The notes below the pieces were generated by a model. It worked only from the letters and a program-made list of their open reading frames with translations. It was not told the DNA's origin and searched no databases. From IMG/VR virus record IMGVR_UViG_3300046459_000548, positions 1-64,000 of that record: DNA of 64,000 bases; one strand, 5' to 3'. Shown here one piece after another: positions 23,857 to 29,500 of this stretch. Numbering within the stretch: the first letter of the stretch is position 1; each line of letters starts with the position of its first letter. Both the position numbers and the translations under genes were made by a program. This DNA comes from a virus.

Positions 23857-24005
23857 CCCCCGAGCCGCCACCCCTCAAGCAGATGCTGCACCTCGTCGAC
23901 CGGGCCGAACGCGGCGTCATCCTCCCCGCCGAAGCCGCCCGACTCCGCATCGCCATACGGGCGTTGTATGCCCGCGCCTACCCGCAGGCGGGGGAGGGCC
24001 GGTGA
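23853..24005 (+). CDS. Small hypothetical protein
   Basis: 50 residues; the ATG at 23853 overlaps the previous stop by 4 bp. Helical with LKQMLHLVDRAERGVILPAE and an Arg-rich end. Small proteins with this AERGVILPxEAxxLR pattern occur often in Streptomyces phages and prophages in my memory, with no known role. Confidence 0.6.
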   Translation: MTPEPPPLKQMLHLVDRAERGVILPAEAARLRIAIRALYARAYPQAGEGR

Positions 24006-24369
24006 CCGGCCTCAGCTCGAACCGGCCGGGCCCGCCTCACCGCCGACGCCGTCCGGCTCCGCAGGCGTCGGGCGAGGCCGCTGCCGTGGCACTTTCTCCC
24101 TGGCCACCCCGGCAGCGGCGCGAGCCAACTGTGTCCGCAGCTGGTCGAACGCCTGAGGCGACAGATCCCGCATTTTCCGGCTCCTGGTCATGCGCCACTA
24201 ACGCCGCACCGGGCGAGCCGACACCGCAATACGGCCAAATGGGGCGCGGCGTGAACCTCGGCACCCACCTCGACTGGCGCTTCAACGCGCAACTGTCCGG
24301 TTCGCGACCTTGCCCCCGTCATGTCCCACCCCCACCCTGACCAGGTTGGCTGACAATCGAGGGGGGCTC
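24006..24369. other. Stretch without a convincing gene
   Basis: The open frames here translate into Pro/Arg/Ser-rich sequence on both strands, without conserved-looking segments. Towards the right end there is GAGGGGGG just before the GTG at 24370, which is the ribosome site of the next gene. No repeat or strong hairpin was seen, so a promoter for the next gene is the most likely content. Confidence 0.4.
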
Positions 24370-25206
24370 GTGGCATTCGGCAACGGCGAAGCGTTACGGC
24401 AGATCGGCATCCAGCTCAGGCAGGCCTTGACGGACCTCGCCGCGGTGAAGCAGCAGCTCACAGACCAGCAGCACGCCATCGACCAGATCCGGTTCGACAC
24501 CACCGCGGCCATCAACACCGGGCTCACCGAGAACCGGGCCGTGATCCGCGACGGCCTCACCCGCGCCAACGAGACGATCTCCGACCCGCTCACCCAGATC
24601 GGCTCCGAACTCGTCGCCATCCGCGGCGGCATCGGGCAGTTGGACAACCAGATCAGGACCGCAGCAGCAGCGGCGGTCGTTCAGCAACCGGCGCCCGAGC
24701 CAGCTCAGGAACCGGAGGCCGCGCCCGTCGAAGACCAAGCGCCCCCGGCGCCCGAGCCGGCCGTCGAACCAGAACCCGAGGCGCCGCACTGGGTCGAACA
24801 CGACCTCGACACCCTCCGAGCCGCAGCCGGCATCTCCGCGGCCAAACTCCACGCCCACCGCGACCTGTGGGCATTCCTCGTAGAACACGCAGGCCGCGAC
24901 CCGCACTTCCACATCCCCGGCGACGTCACCGCCAAGGGGGGAACCGTCCAAGTCGACGTCTCCGGGCGGAGCCTCGTCGCCGCACTCACCAGCCTCCGCT
25001 CCGTCTACCGGGCCGCCCATGTCGATCCGGGCACTGGAGCGATTGCCGAGCACCTGTACGAGCGCATCGCCAAGACCGTGAAGGACATCGCGGCATCGCC
25101 CCACAGCGGGGACGGTGCGGATCCCGTGGTCATCGTCATCGACGACCGGATCAAGCCAGAGGGCGAGCGGCCGCCAGCGCCATCCGAGCCCAACGACGAG
25201 AGCTGA
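24370..25206 (+). CDS. Coiled-coil protein with C-terminal domain
   Basis: 278 residues from a GTG at 24370 with GAGGGGGGCTC upstream. Residues 10-95 are a long coiled coil (LTDLAAVKQQLTDQQHAIDQ). A Pro/Glu/Ala linker (about 105-135) leads to a folded domain (about 140-245) with ISAAKLHAHRDLWAFLVEHA, VTAKGGTVQVDVSGRSLVAA and YERIAKTVKDIA. The tail is acidic. It is the last plus-strand gene before the minus-strand island. The shape recalls a structural or chromosome-associated protein, but the family is unknown. Confidence 0.65.
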   Translation: MAFGNGEALRQIGIQLRQALTDLAAVKQQLTDQQHAIDQIRFDTTAAINTGLTENRAVIRDGLTRANETISDPLTQIGSELVAIRGGIGQLDNQIRTAAAAAVVQQPAPEPAQEPEAAPVEDQAPPAPEPAVEPEPEAPHWVEHDLDTLRAAAGISAAKLHAHRDLWAFLVEHAGRDPHFHIPGDVTAKGGTVQVDVSGRSLVAALTSLRSVYRAAHVDPGTGAIAEHLYERIAKTVKDIAASPHSGDGADPVVIVIDDRIKPEGERPPAPSEPNDES

Positions 25207-25212
25207 ACGCGA

Positions 25213-25249
25213 AGCGCCCCCGCCCGGATTGCTCCGTGGCGGGGGCGCT
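25213..25249. terminator. Strong bidirectional terminator
   Basis: AGCGCCCCCGCC (25213-25224) and GGCGGGGGCGCT (25238-25249) form a perfect 12-bp stem with a 13-nt loop, between the convergent ends at 25206 and 25261. It separates the replication region from the minus-strand island. Confidence 0.75.
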
Positions 25250-25260
25250 GTGCTGTGCCG

Positions 25261-25620
25261 TCAGGCGGCGAGTAGCTCGATCTCGATCGCGAGGGCGCCC
25301 AGCGCCTCCTTCTCGGGCGGGTAGATCCCGCGGATGTTCGCGAGCTGCTCATCGCGGCCAGCTGCCGGGTTCACGTTCGCCGGCCCCTCACCGTCCAGGA
25401 GCGCCTCGAAGTCCGGGTATGCGGTGACCCGCTTCACGAGTACGTCGCACGTCTCGTCGGTGCCCTTGATCCGGAACCGGATCGTGTCCCCGGCAGCCAT
25501 GTCCGCGAGGTGCGGATACCGCACCCGGACCTCGATCGATTTGCGGCCCGCGGCGACGAGATCGAAGTATCTGCGGTACAGATTCAGGTCGTGTCTGCGG
25601 GCGGTGGTCGTGTCGCTCAT
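25261..25620 (-). CDS. ASCH-domain protein
   Basis: 119 residues from an ATG at 25620 that overlaps the stop of the gene upstream (ATGA). The whole protein is an ASCH (PUA-like) fold: LNLYRRYFDLVAAGRKSIEV opens with the typical helix-strand, MAAGDTIRFRIKGTDETCDV is the beta-barrel core, and ALLDGEGPANVNPAAGRDEQ and IYPPEKEALGALAIEIELL follow the EYPxeee...vvviei pattern of the family's end. ASCH proteins bind RNA or modified nucleosides, and some hydrolyse N4-acetylcytidine. Translational coupling to a synthetase-like protein suggests a shared task on tRNA or nucleotides; this is inference. Confidence 0.85.
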   Translation of the reverse strand: MSDTTTARRHDLNLYRRYFDLVAAGRKSIEVRVRYPHLADMAAGDTIRFRIKGTDETCDVLVKRVTAYPDFEALLDGEGPANVNPAAGRDEQLANIRGIYPPEKEALGALAIEIELLAA

Positions 25621-26726
25621 GGGGTGGTGACGCTCCTTGTCGGGTTGGACATGAGGCGGCCGAGTTCGCCGGCCGAATACGCGCGGAAGAAGTGCCGCGG
25701 ATCGGCGAGCAGGACGTCGGCCATGTCGAGCAGTTGGCTGGCGTACTCGGACAACGATCCCTGCCACAGGCGGGTATCGAGCATCCACGGGGCAGCGCCC
25801 TCCGGCAATGCTGCCTTGCCCTCCCGGATGAGGCTCTTGGACAGCTTCGCCCCGGTGTCCGTGACGACCTGCGGGCAGAACAGCCGCGTCGGCAACTGCC
25901 CGGCCGTGAGCCCGATCGCCGTCAGGGCGTTGTCGACGAGAGTCGAGCCGAACACCCAGTCGCCACCCTTGACCATCACACTCAAGCGTTCGCGGTCCGT
26001 GCTGGCGGCGAGCTCCTTGACGAGATTGCGGTACAGCGTCGCGAGGTCGAGATAGCCGCCGCTGCCGGGGGCGATGACGACCTCGTATGGGCCGTGATGC
26101 AGGCAGACGGCGTGCACCACGGCGTAGTCGTCGCCGAGTAGAACACGGGTCCGCTCCGCATGCTTCTCCGCCCACCCGCAATCAGGCTGCGGGCAGGGAA
26201 CGCGGACGTGCGGGCTGCCGTGAGCCGGGTCCAGCCACCAGCGGGCAGCATCGATCCGGCGGTGAGCACGCAGCCAGGTCAGCCGGAAGTGCTCGCCGGC
26301 CTGCTGGCGGGAGTACATCGCGATCGAGTACGGGACCGACAGGCGGTCGGACAGCGCGGCGAACAGAGGCCGGTACAACTCGTCGACCTGGCCGGCGAGA
26401 GTGTCCTCGCCGAGGGCCTGGGCGTAGGCGCGCTGATACCGGTGCCCCGACGCCGGGTCGGTGACGATCTCGTGCGGGGCGTTGTCGAGGGCGCCGAACA
26501 TGACGTCGACGGGGATGCCGAAGCGGTCTCGGGCCCGGGCCGCGGCGGCGAAAGTCAGGGACTGCACCAGCGAGGTGCCCAGATGGGGCACACCGTTGAT
26601 CTGGGTGCCGACCACGAACGTGATACGCGAAGGGCGTGTGGTCCGCACGCGGGGTGAGAGGACGTCCTCGACGGCGCCGAGCGCGTTGGCCAGCACCGTG
26701 TTCGGAGAAACGGGAAATGCAGGCAT
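25617..26726 (-). CDS. Class I aminoacyl-tRNA synthetase-like protein (LysRS-I-like)
   Basis: 369 residues, ATG at 26726. A Rossmann-type catalytic domain is indicated by VVGTQINGVPHLGTSLVQSL (about 38-57), where PHLGT stands for the HIGH motif, and by TDTGAKLSKSLIREG (about 298-312), where KLSKS stands for KMSKS. A zinc knuckle CPQPDCGW...CLHHG lies near residues 187-220. This layout is closest to class I lysyl-tRNA synthetase, but that enzyme has about 500 residues; the anticodon-binding helical domain is missing here. So a housekeeping synthetase is unlikely; it more likely adenylates an amino acid or acts on tRNA in a dedicated pathway. The similarity is from motif reading only. Confidence 0.7.
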   Translation of the reverse strand: MPAFPVSPNTVLANALGAVEDVLSPRVRTTRPSRITFVVGTQINGVPHLGTSLVQSLTFAAAARARDRFGIPVDVMFGALDNAPHEIVTDPASGHRYQRAYAQALGEDTLAGQVDELYRPLFAALSDRLSVPYSIAMYSRQQAGEHFRLTWLRAHRRIDAARWWLDPAHGSPHVRVPCPQPDCGWAEKHAERTRVLLGDDYAVVHAVCLHHGPYEVVIAPGSGGYLDLATLYRNLVKELAASTDRERLSVMVKGGDWVFGSTLVDNALTAIGLTAGQLPTRLFCPQVVTDTGAKLSKSLIREGKAALPEGAAPWMLDTRLWQGSLSEYASQLLDMADVLLADPRHFFRAYSAGELGRLMSNPTRSVTTP

Positions 26727-26749
26727 GTCTGCTCCCTGGACGGGGCTGG

Positions 26750-27061
26750 TCAGATTTCCGTGGTGACGAACGGCGCCGGCAACTGCGGCAGGTCGACGTC
26801 AAAGACCTGGGCGAGCAGATAGCGGGCCACAGTGTCGTGCTCCAGCTCGCTACGCCCGGCAGGCATGGACAGGATGATCTCGCCGCTCTTGCGCTGGACG
26901 ACCGCGCCGTAGAAGCCGGCGTCCGCGATCGAGCTCTCGAAGAGCTCCACCCCGGTCTCGATCAGGAGGTCAGGCAGCGGGGCGTCGAGCAGACGATCGG
27001 GCGTGACGGACGCCGCAGGGGCGGAGGTGGCGACGGCGGGAGCAGGGATTGCTAAGGTCAT
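26750..27061 (-). CDS. Small protein in synthetase-like operon
   Basis: 103 residues; the ATG at 27061 follows an AAAAGGAC site. It lies 23 bp upstream of the synthetase-like gene on the same strand and so is probably the first gene of that operon. The N-terminal 20 residues are Ala/Pro-rich; the rest has a strand-rich core (GFYGAVVQRKSGEIILSMPA) and a helix (ELEHDTVARYLLAQVFDVDL). It has a carrier-protein-like size but no Ser-attachment motif was recognised. Function unknown. Confidence 0.65.
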   Translation of the reverse strand: MTLAIPAPAVATSAPAASVTPDRLLDAPLPDLLIETGVELFESSIADAGFYGAVVQRKSGEIILSMPAGRSELEHDTVARYLLAQVFDVDLPQLPAPFVTTEI

Positions 27062-27126
27062 GGGTGTAGTCCTTTTCTGACGGGACGGATTGCAGATCAG
27101 CGGCTGGAACCGCTGGTTGATGAACT

Positions 27127-27150
27127 GGCCGGGCGTTCGAGCGCCCGGCC
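27127..27150. terminator. Terminator between GIY-YIG gene and next operon
   Basis: GGCCGGGCG (27127-27135) pairs with CGCCCGGCC (27142-27150), a 9-bp stem with a 6-nt loop. It lies just past the stop of the minus-strand GIY-YIG gene (27171), isolating it from the operon that starts at 27061. A short T-run follows on the plus strand. Confidence 0.6.
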
Positions 27151-27170
27151 GTTCGCTTTTGTGCGGTGAC

Positions 27171-27929
27171 CTACTCGGGGTCAGGGACTGCGACGTAGAG
27201 AATCTGAGGGCGGCCCACCTTGGGTTTCCTTTTGCCAGCCACCCTGAATCGTCCAGTTGCAGTCAAGCGCCGCGAGTAGACGCGCACGGTGCCCTCCGGA
27301 GCGCCCAGCCGCTCCCTTAGGTCTGACTGGCTGAAGGGCTGGTCACCGAATGCTTTCAAGGCGAGCCCGTGAAGGCGGCGAGCCTCGAAGCGCTTCGGCT
27401 CGCGATCCGCACCCCGGCGCCGTTTAGCCTCCCGATTCCGAAAGAAGGGCTCAATCGCGGCCCACGAGAACAGCCAAGTGCCGCTTACTTGGCACCAGTC
27501 GCTTTGAGGGACAGGCCACAGTGGGTCCGACTGGGCAATCCTGATGAGCCCGGTTCGCGTCAGGGGTGCGGTGTAGCCGAGCGCGACCGCGCGCCGGACC
27601 ATCTCTGAGAACGTGACCAGGTCATCCTGGTCGACGGTGGGGAATGGGCCCCTTGGGCGGGCCGACACTCGCGTCGCATCGAGGGCGTGCCTTTTGTTGT
27701 GGAGTGGCTTCTCTTCCCTGATGGCGCGGACCTCGGCCAGCGCCGCCTCCAGCCGACTGGGATACCAGCTGGTCTCCGATGAGGCCGCGGTGGGCCACCA
27801 TGTCAGCGCAGCGTCGCGTGCGTGTTGGGAGAATCTTGCGTTCGGACTGTTGGTTATCCCGACATAGAGCAGGGTTCCGTCAGGGTCGAAGAACCGGTAG
27901 AGCGCGGTGCGCTCGGGAGATGCGGGCAT
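27171..27929 (-). CDS. GIY-YIG nuclease-domain protein with C-terminal winged helix
   Basis: 252 residues from the ATG at 27929, which follows TAAGGAGCGGC; further upstream in-frame codons lack a ribosome site. The N-terminal GIY-YIG domain (about 5-75) shows ALYRFFDPDGTLLYVGITNS with the two motif halves, R21-like NARFSQHARD, and later SRLEAALAEVRAIREEKPLHNK with the catalytic Glu and the Asn. The remainder (about 85-250) contains two HTH-like parts (ALGYTAPLTRTGLIRIAQSD and LRERLGAPEGTVRVYSRRLT). GIY-YIG nucleases act in homing, repair or restriction; the added DNA-binding parts favour a sequence-targeted nuclease or regulator. Confidence 0.8.
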   Translation of the reverse strand: MPASPERTALYRFFDPDGTLLYVGITNSPNARFSQHARDAALTWWPTAASSETSWYPSRLEAALAEVRAIREEKPLHNKRHALDATRVSARPRGPFPTVDQDDLVTFSEMVRRAVALGYTAPLTRTGLIRIAQSDPLWPVPQSDWCQVSGTWLFSWAAIEPFFRNREAKRRRGADREPKRFEARRLHGLALKAFGDQPFSQSDLRERLGAPEGTVRVYSRRLTATGRFRVAGKRKPKVGRPQILYVAVPDPE

Positions 27930-28028
27930 GCCGCTCCTTACTGAGCGTGTGGCGTGGGCCACTCGCACGGACAGAACCGTAAGGCTTACTCATTCAGGTA
28001 TCAAGCCCGAGCGTTCGGATATGCAAAA

Positions 28029-28051
28029 GCCCCCGGTCGGAGGCCGGGGGC
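28029..28051 (-). terminator. Rho-independent terminator of GntR gene
   Basis: GCCCCCGG (28029-28036) pairs with CCGGGGGC (28044-28051). Read on the minus strand, the stem is followed by TTTT, a textbook intrinsic terminator 18 bp past the GntR stop. Confidence 0.8.
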
Positions 28052-28068
28052 GTGCAAGTGGGAGACAG

Positions 28069-28833
28069 TCAGGGGCAGTCGACGCTGTACGCCATCTTGA
28101 AGCGGTGCGCCGGCTTCGTGAGCAGCGAGACCTCGATCGGCCGCTGCTCGTCGCTGTACACGACGCGGAAGATCTCGATCACCGGTACATCGCGCGGGAT
28201 CTCGAGGTGTACGTACTCCTCGGTGGTGGCCGGTCGCGCGCCAAGCACGTCATCCTGTGAGCGGGTCGGGTATCCCATCTCCTCCAGTAGGAGCGGCGAT
28301 CCGCCCGGGATGAGCCTCCGGTCCTCGAGCCGCGTCCCGCGCGCCAGCTCGATCGGGTAGTACGAATGCACCAGTTCGGCTGGCTTGCCATCGAGGTAGC
28401 CGATGCGGGACCGGCGCATCGCCGTCCCGTCCTCGTCTAGGCCGAGAGCGAGGCGGACTTGTTTCGGCGGTTTCACCTCGCCGACCTCGAGCATCTTGTA
28501 CTTGCCGTGCTGCTGGTTCTTCGTGGCCTCGGTCAGCCACCGGTACGGCTGCCCCGGCTCGGAGGGGCGCAGGCTGTGTGCGGGGCTGATTGCCTGGGAG
28601 CCTTCGTTGCGCACGAAGACGCCGACTCCAGTCTGGCCCTCGAGGAACCTTTCGTCTTTGAGGATCTGGAGGGCGCGCTGAATGGTCACGTTCGACGTTT
28701 CGAACTGTTCCCTCAGCTTCTCGTTTGTGGGGACCCGGGCTCCAGGTTCCCAGTCGCCCGACATGATCAGCTTTCTGATCTCGGCGGCGATGCGCTCACC
28801 GAGGGGGCGCTTGTCCTCGTGCGGCTCGGGCAT
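28069..28833 (-). CDS. GntR/UTRA transcriptional regulator (KorSA-type position)
   Basis: 254 residues, ATG at 28833. The N-terminal GntR winged helix (about 8-75) has LGERIAAEIRKLIMSGDWEP, LREQFETSNVTIQRALQILK and FLEGQTGVGVFV. The C-terminal UTRA domain (about 105-250) has AELVHSYYPIELARGTRLED and PIEVSLLTKPAHRFKM. Regulators of this family (KorSA, KorA-like) repress transfer and excision genes in actinomycete conjugative elements. It lies 1 bp after the UTRA-only paralogue and faces the transfer-side HTH gene across a divergent region with inverted operator-like sites. Confidence 0.85.
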   Translation of the reverse strand: MPEPHEDKRPLGERIAAEIRKLIMSGDWEPGARVPTNEKLREQFETSNVTIQRALQILKDERFLEGQTGVGVFVRNEGSQAISPAHSLRPSEPGQPYRWLTEATKNQQHGKYKMLEVGEVKPPKQVRLALGLDEDGTAMRRSRIGYLDGKPAELVHSYYPIELARGTRLEDRRLIPGGSPLLLEEMGYPTRSQDDVLGARPATTEEYVHLEIPRDVPVIEIFRVVYSDEQRPIEVSLLTKPAHRFKMAYSVDCP

Positions 28834-28834
28834 G

Positions 28835-29365
28835 TCAGTCGACCTCGATCTCGTAGTGGAGGCGGCGAGGCGCCTTCATGACCATGAACTGCACTTCGAT
28901 GGGGCTCCCGTCTTCGGCGGTGGTCGTGCGTAGCAGCGTCAGGACACTCGAGCCCTCAGGGAGGGAGAGCGCGGTGCGCTCGAAGTCGTCCGCCTCCCGG
29001 AACTCCAGATCCTCGGAGACGTGCCGGGCGTGGTAGCCGAGTTCGGCCAGCAGTGTGGGTGCGCCGCCTTTGATCTTCTTCTTCTCGAGGAGCGCTGTAC
29101 CGCGCGCGATCTCGAGCGGGTAATACGAGTCGGCGAGTTCGATCGCTTCATCGTCGAGCAGGATGACCCGGCGGCGAACAGCGACCTTCTCGCCGGCTCC
29201 GAGAGAGAGGGTGGCGGCCACCTCTCGCGGCGGCACGACCTCGGCGACCTCGGTGAGTTGCTGACCGCCTCGTTGCCGCATCTCCTCACTCCAGGCGTCC
29301 GCTTGCCCCTGTTCGCGAGGCGTGACGTAGGCGAGTGAGTCATTCCGTCGCTGATTCTCGGCCAT
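28835..29365 (-). CDS. UTRA-domain-only protein (GntR paralogue lacking HTH)
   Basis: 176 residues from the ATG at 29365. It aligns with the UTRA part of the next gene: AIELADSYYPLEIARGTALL against AELVHSYYPIELARGTRLED, LLAELGYHARHVSEDLEFRE against LLEEMGYPTRSQDDVLGARP, and PIEVQFMVMKAPRRLHYEIE at the end. There is no winged helix: only about 30 polar residues precede the domain. It is the promoter-proximal gene of a two-gene operon. It could sequester ligand, form inactive heterodimers with the full-length repressor, or serve as a separate sensor. Confidence 0.8.
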   Translation of the reverse strand: MAENQRRNDSLAYVTPREQGQADAWSEEMRQRGGQQLTEVAEVVPPREVAATLSLGAGEKVAVRRRVILLDDEAIELADSYYPLEIARGTALLEKKKIKGGAPTLLAELGYHARHVSEDLEFREADDFERTALSLPEGSSVLTLLRTTTAEDGSPIEVQFMVMKAPRRLHYEIEVD

Positions 29366-29412
29366 CTCTTGAGCCTCCCCTCCACTGATGATGCTCGTTC
29401 TGACCTCCCAAC

Positions 29413-29500
29413 CTTAAGCCCTTGATGATTACAGATGCCTGCACCCGCTTGGCCGAATCTGCGTCGCGAGGCTTGCTACGTTATGCATCAAGGCTTTAAG
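29413..29500. promoter_or_regulatory. Inverted pair of operator-like sites in divergent promoter region
   Basis: CTTAAGCCCTTGATGAT (29413-29429) is repeated in inverted form as ATGCATCAAGGCTTTAAG (29483-29500), sharing CATCAAGG and CTTAAG/CTTTAAG. The two sites lie between the divergent starts at 29365 and 29538 and overlap plausible promoter elements (TTGCTA at 29473, TTTAAG at 29495). They are the likely operators of the GntR/UTRA pair, controlling both directions. Confidence 0.55.

Follow-up and report, generated by a model that had tools for sequence, protein, structure and literature searches.

What might a temperate phage do with an enzyme that resembles an aminoacyl-tRNA synthetase (aaRS), lacks an anticodon-binding domain and is encoded directly ahead of an ASCH protein? 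This question is raised by positions 25261-27061 of a 64,000-nucleotide stretch of virus DNA (positions 1 to 64,000 of IMG/VR record IMGVR_UViG_3300046459_000548), which we refer to as the window. The source record is 92,199 bases long and encodes an integrase, replication genes, a terminase, a portal, a major head protein and tail genes, and on the strength of this gene content the virus is a temperate actinophage of the Streptomyces type. The minus strand of 25261-27061 contains three open reading frames (ORFs) of 103, 369 and 119 amino acids, each with an ATG start and a TGA stop, and each preceded by a Shine-Dalgarno-like stretch (AAAAGGA, AGGGAG and AAGGAG, respectively). The second ORF (25617-26726) encodes a protein resembling class I lysyl-tRNA synthetase (LysRS) and the third (25261-25620) encodes the ASCH protein; the stop codon of the former and the start codon of the latter overlap as ATGA.

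A preliminary description of this DNA had proposed a three-gene operon in which the synthetase-like and ASCH proteins might form a joint system, and the three ORFs and the ATGA overlap are both present as it described them. Below we report that the pairing of the two proteins is real and deep. We favour, at a little under even probability, a reading in which the pair works as a ligase: it would adenylate an amino acid and join it to a nucleic acid or nucleotide provided by the ASCH partner.

The LysRS-like and ASCH proteins

The 369-residue protein carries a HIGH-like motif, PHLGT, at residues 47-51 and a KMSKS-like motif, KLSKS, at residues 294-298 (within GAKLSKS, 292-298). A zinc knuckle between residues 178 and 212 has the form C178-x4-C183...C208-x2-H211-G212, and GGD at residues 254-256 stands where class I LysRS has GxDH. 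The protein stops approximately 70 residues past KLSKS, whereas bona fide class I LysRS proteins of Streptomyces are 573-619 amino acids long, so the anticodon-binding domain is missing. Residue positions and length thus confirm the two motifs, the zinc knuckle and the missing domain that had been recognized previously.

Scans of the protein against Pfam, NCBIfam and PADLOC gave no match, and the class I LysRS family PF01921 was not matched even at an E-value of 10. Its PHROGs match, to phrog_35625 'tRNA synthetase', extends over the full length (2e-178). An AlphaFold2 model built from 51 sequences had a mean predicted local distance difference test (pLDDT) score of 89.7 and a predicted template modelling (pTM) score of 0.89. 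Comparison of this model with the PDB using Foldseek returned class I LysRS (1irx) as the top match (E-value 5.7e-8, template modelling (TM) score 0.50), followed by GluRS, MetRS, GlnRS, and CysRS. The HUP/Rossmann synthetase fold anticipated in the preliminary description is therefore borne out by structure prediction, and the predicted fold combines the class I catalytic domain with the HIGH and KMSKS motifs, as in class I LysRS. Kinship to LysRS follows from this fold comparison and from a relative encoded in Macrococcus, which matches PF01921 at 2.5e-5 (23.8 bits, below the curated cut-off of 27). Searching PDB sequences with this protein alone or with a profile gave no useful match, and profile comparison with Streptomyces LysRS1 gave a weak match confined to the N-terminal half. 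As the C-terminal half was misaligned with LysRS by MAFFT, we make no claim about lysine-pocket residues in that half.

Ten representatives with 24-69% identity to the window protein, drawn from the window type, the fused type, a Streptomyces cluster-type copy, Streptosporangiales, Pantoea, and Macrococcus, share a set of invariant residues. These are Q42, N44, P47-H48-x-G50-T51, C178-P179, C183, C208, H211-G212, G254-x-D256, and G292-x-K294-x-x-K297-S298. Relatives with 52-93% identity are present in other virus records, and comparison with seven relatives gave a ratio of nonsynonymous to synonymous substitution rates (dN/dS) of 0.16-0.19, indicating purifying selection. The virus homologs, the low dN/dS and the invariance of the motifs down to 24% identity indicate a real coding sequence. 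The 369-residue protein is predicted to be a divergent class I aaRS-like enzyme that has a complete set of motifs but no anticodon-binding domain, with class I LysRS as its nearest solved relative.

Could the protein simply be a standard LysRS with which the phage supports translation? The PHROG name and the closest solved fold both point in that direction. However, the protein has neither an anticodon-binding domain nor a PF01921 match, a full class I LysRS is already encoded in the three host genomes checked, and a search for tRNA genes across the window found none. We regard this explanation as very improbable.

The 119-residue protein matches the ASCH family PF04266 at 38.7 bits against a cut-off of 21.2 (1.7e-9), the PHROGs family phrog_19935 'RNA-binding protein' (7e-44), and PDB entry 2z0t (1.1e-7). 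The G-x-K-x-x-E-x-R signature corresponds to G25, K27, E30, and R32 and is invariant; residues K27, E30, R32, N84, I96-R97, and Y100 are invariant across the ASCH relatives. With a score above the cut-off and an intact signature, the third gene does encode a true ASCH domain, as had been suggested. Its dN/dS against seven relatives is 0.07-0.16. The catalytic residues of the N4-acylcytosine amidohydrolase YqfB are Thr24, Lys21, and Arg26 (PMC6972931). In our alignment the lysine and the arginine are kept and Thr24 aligns with Glu30; as the nucleophile is replaced, the protein is not a YqfB-type amidohydrolase by this residue test.

Pairing, fusion and spread of the two genes

Our first survey covered virus contigs, phages, plasmids, and 80 genome loci (the best 80 of 171 in the species-level genome set). 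Wherever the contig extended past an actinobacterial synthetase-like gene, ASCH lay directly behind that gene or was fused to it; one locus (L085) stops at the end of its contig. Within the Streptomyces group (247 genomes, a few of which had been reached through the query itself) ASCH was adjacent in 29 of 30 full-length copies, as counted from two tables. When either type of ASCH protein described below is considered, 135 of the 141 loci with a LysRS-like match, some of them redundant, have one. The remaining six are a Pantoea locus, a Streptomyces cluster copy, one contig end, and three short loci around fragments.

The two proteins also occur as a single chain. Approximately ten natural LysRS-ASCH fusions of about 480-490 residues were found in Glycomyces, Actinomadura, Actinokineospora, Amycolatopsis, Prauserella, Streptomyces, and one uncultured member of the Pseudonocardiales. 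One fusion was modelled on its own, with a pLDDT of 89.5, a pTM of 0.88 and both domains confident. Its ASCH part fits 2z0t with a TM score of 0.90 (normalised to the 109-residue target) at 1.5 Å; this fold match, the PF04266 score and the invariant signature place the protein in the ASCH superfamily. The tree requires at least two switches between the fused and separate states, the second of which (L071) rests on one draft genome. Most of the fusions lie in a conserved operon with a P-loop gene; in all loci of the main fused clade that were examined, this operon consists of an unknown protein of approximately 300 residues, an AAA_28 P-loop protein and the LysRS-ASCH fusion. Distances between the LysRS-like proteins correlate with those between their ASCH partners (Mantel r of 0.85 for 97 pairs and 0.70 within the 88 closest), and none of 2000 permutations reached as high a value. 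Relatives of the two genes thus nearly always co-occur or fuse, and the idea of a joint system survives the neighbourhood survey: the LysRS-like/ASCH pairing is real and deep.

Two distant subfamilies have a different ASCH-like partner. The Streptosporangiales subfamily has approximately 30% identity to the window protein, and its loci also encode an ASCH-like protein of another type. On Macrococcus plasmids, the gene for a homolog of this ASCH-like protein and the LysRS-like gene have 8 bases in common. A joint profile of the Streptosporangiales and Macrococcus partners matches 5y6c, 5guq, 5gus, and 5y6b (3.5e-5 to 4.7e-4), the four crystal structures of the single-stranded RNA (ssRNA)-specific ribonuclease ZmASCH. 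Profile comparison of the 137-residue Macrococcus partner with the PF04266-type ASCH proteins revealed no relation, and this partner was recognised as ASCH-like only jointly with the Streptosporangiales proteins. The ZmASCH-type profile aligns with the window-type ASCH proteins at the signature motif only. The two subfamilies lend independent support to the pairing.

The Streptosporangiales loci (L152-L156) are conserved and contain genes for an M20 peptidase, a helix-turn-helix (HTH) protein, the ZmASCH-type protein, a divergent AlaDh/PNT-like dehydrogenase, one or two methyltransferases, and the divergent LysRS-like protein; L153 and L154 additionally encode an S-adenosylmethionine-decarboxylase-like protein. 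At another locus (L115:3827-5392) an in-frame chimera joins the front of an M20 peptidase to the back half of a LysRS-like protein from the zinc knuckle on, and looks like a deletion inside a locus of the Streptosporangiales type.

The family is carried by Streptomyces phages Picard and Mojorita, with the Picard pair directly before the integrase, and by plasmids of Streptomyces, Amycolatopsis, Prauserella, Pantoea, and Macrococcus. Outside Actinomycetota our surveys covered plasmids and viruses, and the relatives found there are plasmid records. Occurrence on chromosomes is patchy and the genes are often decayed: 41 of the 247 genomes have a match, fragments included, and about a quarter of those have fragments only. 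In four genomes (G254, G293, G300, and G401) the synthetase-like gene is in fragments and an ASCH match, partial in G401, is still found alongside. Upstream partners vary by clade and include a divergent HTH/tetratricopeptide repeat (TPR) regulator with a methyltransferase, DUF218 with WbqC, and a HATPase. The pair has spread laterally and belongs to the mobile accessory gene content of phages, plasmids, and chromosomes, outside core translation.

Possible functions of the pair

Under the reading we favour, the two core genes would encode one enzyme in two pieces, which in other actinobacteria is one chain. The LysRS-like domain would bind ATP together with lysine or another amino acid to form an aminoacyl-AMP; such adenylate formation is inferred because the HIGH and KMSKS motifs are intact. 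The PUA-like ASCH domain lies at the C-terminal end, the chain position of the anticodon-binding domain in LysRS, and in a second step its cleft would hold the acceptor, a nucleotide, a nucleoside or a (modified) RNA base, to which the amino acid would be passed. Of the functions suggested in the preliminary description, namely tRNA modification, an aminoacyl adduct, and defence or counter-defence, the best fit is therefore an aminoacyl adduct formed with or on a nucleotide or RNA that ASCH binds. By analogy with other ASCH proteins, and more weakly than adenylate formation, we suggest that the acceptor is a nucleic acid or a nucleotide. Such an acceptor is favoured by the biology of ASCH and PUA domains, by ZmASCH and by neighbouring nucleotide enzymes. 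RNA or modified bases are ligands of ASCH and PUA domains (PMC7641849), and ZmASCH cuts ssRNA (PMC5615036). Nucleotide-type enzymes encoded near relatives of the pair include the AAA_28 protein, a NUDIX domain fused to an orphan ASCH relative, and LOG-type and Ham1-type proteins in Pantoea. The more specific proposal, of a mobile phage-borne two-part enzyme in which ASCH replaces the anticodon-binding domain of a LysRS-like subunit and chooses the base, RNA end or nucleotide to be aminoacylated, is offered tentatively, with a probability nearer one third than one half.

Several observations weigh against an ASCH-supplied nucleic-acid or nucleotide acceptor. The isoelectric points of the ASCH proteins range from 5.0 to 9.3; a basic character is not shared by all of them, and surface charge is uninformative with regard to RNA binding. 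In Streptosporangiales the ASCH gene is on the opposite strand and is not adjacent to the LysRS-like gene. In several Streptomyces genomes an ASCH gene persists together with a decayed synthetase gene or with none at all. A search for Rfam families at 24000-29500, around the unit, found none; with neither a tRNA gene nor an Rfam RNA beside the window pair, and tRNA genes rare near its relatives, no dedicated tRNA or other RNA partner is visible. Finally, two LysRS-like relatives without ASCH, one in Streptomyces (L114) and one in Pantoea (L013), are located in small-molecule-type clusters, so the chemistry of the enzyme is not strictly ASCH-dependent.

The absence of travelling tRNA genes also weighs against a sub-case of the favoured reading, in which the pair would act like GluQ-RS in the infected cell and charge a modified tRNA base of the host. 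GluQ-RS is a precedent for an aaRS paralog reduced to the catalytic domain (PMC3542578), and modified bases can be recognised by ASCH and PUA domains (PMC7641849). In addition to the missing tRNA genes, the patchy occurrence even within Streptomyces (41/247 genomes, fragments included) is unlike that of a fixed tRNA modification, and we consider this sub-case improbable.

The relatives without ASCH point instead to the main rival, a tRNA-independent ligase that couples an activated amino acid to a small amine or hydroxyl, with ASCH binding or hydrolysing a small molecule or an unstable intermediate, as the cupin does for PyrN. CysRS-like MshC and the MetRS-like half of PyrN couple an activated amino acid to a small amine or hydroxyl. 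Relatives in Streptomyces (genome G290, L114), Streptosporangiales (L152-L156), Macrococcus, and Pantoea are found in small-molecule-type loci, and the model of the LysRS-ASCH fusion has PyrN as one of its Foldseek matches. The MetRS-like/cupin pair, which likewise occurs as separate or fused proteins, is a strong precedent (PMC8664883). In contrast, the phage, plasmid, and fused-clade loci examined are without such clusters, and the constant partners in the fused clade are the P-loop gene and the gene of unknown type. Moreover, the constant partner of the LysRS-like protein is ASCH, and characterised bacterial members of this superfamily act on RNA or cytosine nucleosides. A small-molecule ligase is, in our assessment, a serious candidate that is nonetheless unlikely on balance.

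The clusters themselves are varied. The Streptomyces copy without ASCH (G290; L114:11-6992 and L126:9936-11591) has 42% identity to the window protein. Its cluster encodes a major facilitator superfamily (MFS) transporter, an SbnA-like pyridoxal-phosphate-dependent synthase, an AurF N-oxygenase, an SbnB-like ornithine-cyclodeaminase-like protein, a carbamoyltransferase, a methyltransferase, the LysRS-like protein, PhyH, and transporters; the product is possibly a diaminopropionate-derived, N-oxidised compound. The Pantoea plasmid pJZ29-01 (L013:5264-9044) has a methyltransferase, the LysRS-like protein, a LOG/TIGR00730 protein, a DMT transporter and a Ham1-like NTP pyrophosphatase in one run that looks like a nucleotide-related biosynthetic operon. 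The Macrococcus locus contains two ATP-grasp genes and an MFS gene. Two orphan ASCH relatives were also observed: one is fused to a NUDIX domain (L120:3756-4625) beside methyltransferase genes, and the other (L122) overlaps a gene for an NsdA-family TPR regulator.

The spread of the pair also raises the possibility of a conflict module, either a toxin-antitoxin system or a phage defence. One protein would harm translation or RNA, through tRNA aminoacylation or ZmASCH-like cutting, and the other would restrain it or sense modified nucleic acid. Strong mobility across phages, plasmids, and chromosomes, the tight overlap of the two genes, and frequent chromosomal decay are consistent with such a module, as are the integrase adjoining the Picard pair, the divergent HTH/TPR regulators at many chromosomal loci, and the occasional antitoxin-like retention of ASCH alone. 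The ZmASCH-like partner in Macrococcus (L014:7007-7420) matches the PADLOC candidate defence model PDC-M11B (2.6e-13). However, none of the three window proteins has a PADLOC match, leaving no known defence system among them, and two lineages keep the enzyme alone in small-molecule-type loci. As enzyme-only copies exist, an obligate toxin is disfavoured, and we assign the conflict module a low probability.

Flanking genes and relation to known systems

The remaining ORF of the probable transcription unit, its first gene (26750-27061), encodes an acidic protein of 103 residues that matched no family in Pfam, NCBIfam, PADLOC or PHROGs. It occurs only in the closest virus relatives (L002, L004, L005, and L006) and evolves faster than the pair, with a dN/dS of 0.28-0.37. 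On these grounds we rejected it as a third component and regard it as a local neighbour outside the system; it may be a passenger or a regulator. Of the proposed three-gene operon, the three ORFs therefore stand, while the membership of the first in the system does not.

Strong hairpins flank the unit. One, at 25213-25249, lies directly 3' of the ASCH stop codon and probably marks the end of the unit, although it has no long U run (-43 kcal/mol, z of -5.0 for a 71-nucleotide stretch). The other, at 27126-27151 (-47.7 kcal/mol, z of -4.6 for a 111-nucleotide stretch), is a probable boundary between the 103-residue gene and the upstream neighbour. This neighbour (27171-27968, minus strand) encodes a 265-residue protein with an N-terminal GIY-YIG nuclease-type domain and a weak winged-helix match further on (E-value 0.09); it adjoins the unit, yet is separated from it by the hairpin. 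Farther upstream, 28069-29365 on the minus strand encodes a GntR-UTRA regulator beside a second UTRA protein of 176 residues that has no DNA-binding half and is possibly a ligand-sensing co-regulator.

The pair itself has been seen before. Streptomyces phage Picard gp28 and gp29 belong to phrog_35625 and phrog_19935 and have 69% and 80% identity to the window proteins; they are annotated as 'tRNA synthetase' and 'RNA-binding protein', with no joint function stated. The suggestion that neither protein belongs to standard phage functions thus has to be narrowed: both families are named in PHROGs and the pair is present in Picard, and what is missing there is a stated joint function. We found no paper joining ASCH to a synthetase in the open literature, a weak negative as this mostly excludes subscription papers. 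To our knowledge, the coupling of a LysRS1-like enzyme to ASCH on phages and plasmids has no earlier description.

Reuse of the aaRS catalytic domain is already known from GluQ-RS, MshC, and PyrN, and synthetase catalytic domains that no longer depend on reading an anticodon have proved to be a source of new chemistry (mycothiol, hydrazines, and glutamyl-queuosine). Should the pair place an amino acid on a target that ASCH selects, the modification of RNA or nucleotides would be of a new type. If the product is an aminoacylated nucleotide or RNA base, ASCH, a widespread domain of mostly unknown role, would gain a concrete function, and a new post-transcriptional or metabolite modification would be added to those known; the presence of the pair in temperate phages that infect antibiotic-producing bacteria would then also have an explanation. 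The single-chain fusions make the pair directly testable.

Compared with class I LysRS (LysRS1, PF01921, 1irx), the window protein shares the catalytic fold, the HIGH and KMSKS motifs, the zinc knuckle, and GxD. It differs in length (369 residues, against approximately 570-620 with the anticodon-binding domain), fits with a TM score of only about 0.5, and travels with ASCH; in addition, Q42 and N44 are invariant in the LysRS-like family, whereas the aligned Streptomyces LysRS has serine there. With other ASCH proteins (PF04266; 2z0t; ZmASCH, 5guq; YqfB) the partner shares a genuine domain and the G-x-K-x-x-E-x-R signature, and here this domain is coupled to an aaRS-like enzyme. GluQ-RS is similarly an aaRS paralog cut down to its catalytic domain; however, it is GluRS-derived, chromosomal, and without an ASCH partner, and the window protein has LysRS1 rather than GluRS or GlnRS as its best fold match, with GluRS ranking lower. 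In the N-N-forming enzymes of the PyrN/Spb40 type, where PyrN activates an amino acid without tRNA (PMC8664883), the synthetase-like domain is MetRS-like and not LysRS-like and the partner is a cupin and not ASCH, and no lysine N-hydroxylase was seen beside our pair. What the two have in common is an aaRS-like domain with a small β-barrel partner, encoded either separately or as a fusion.

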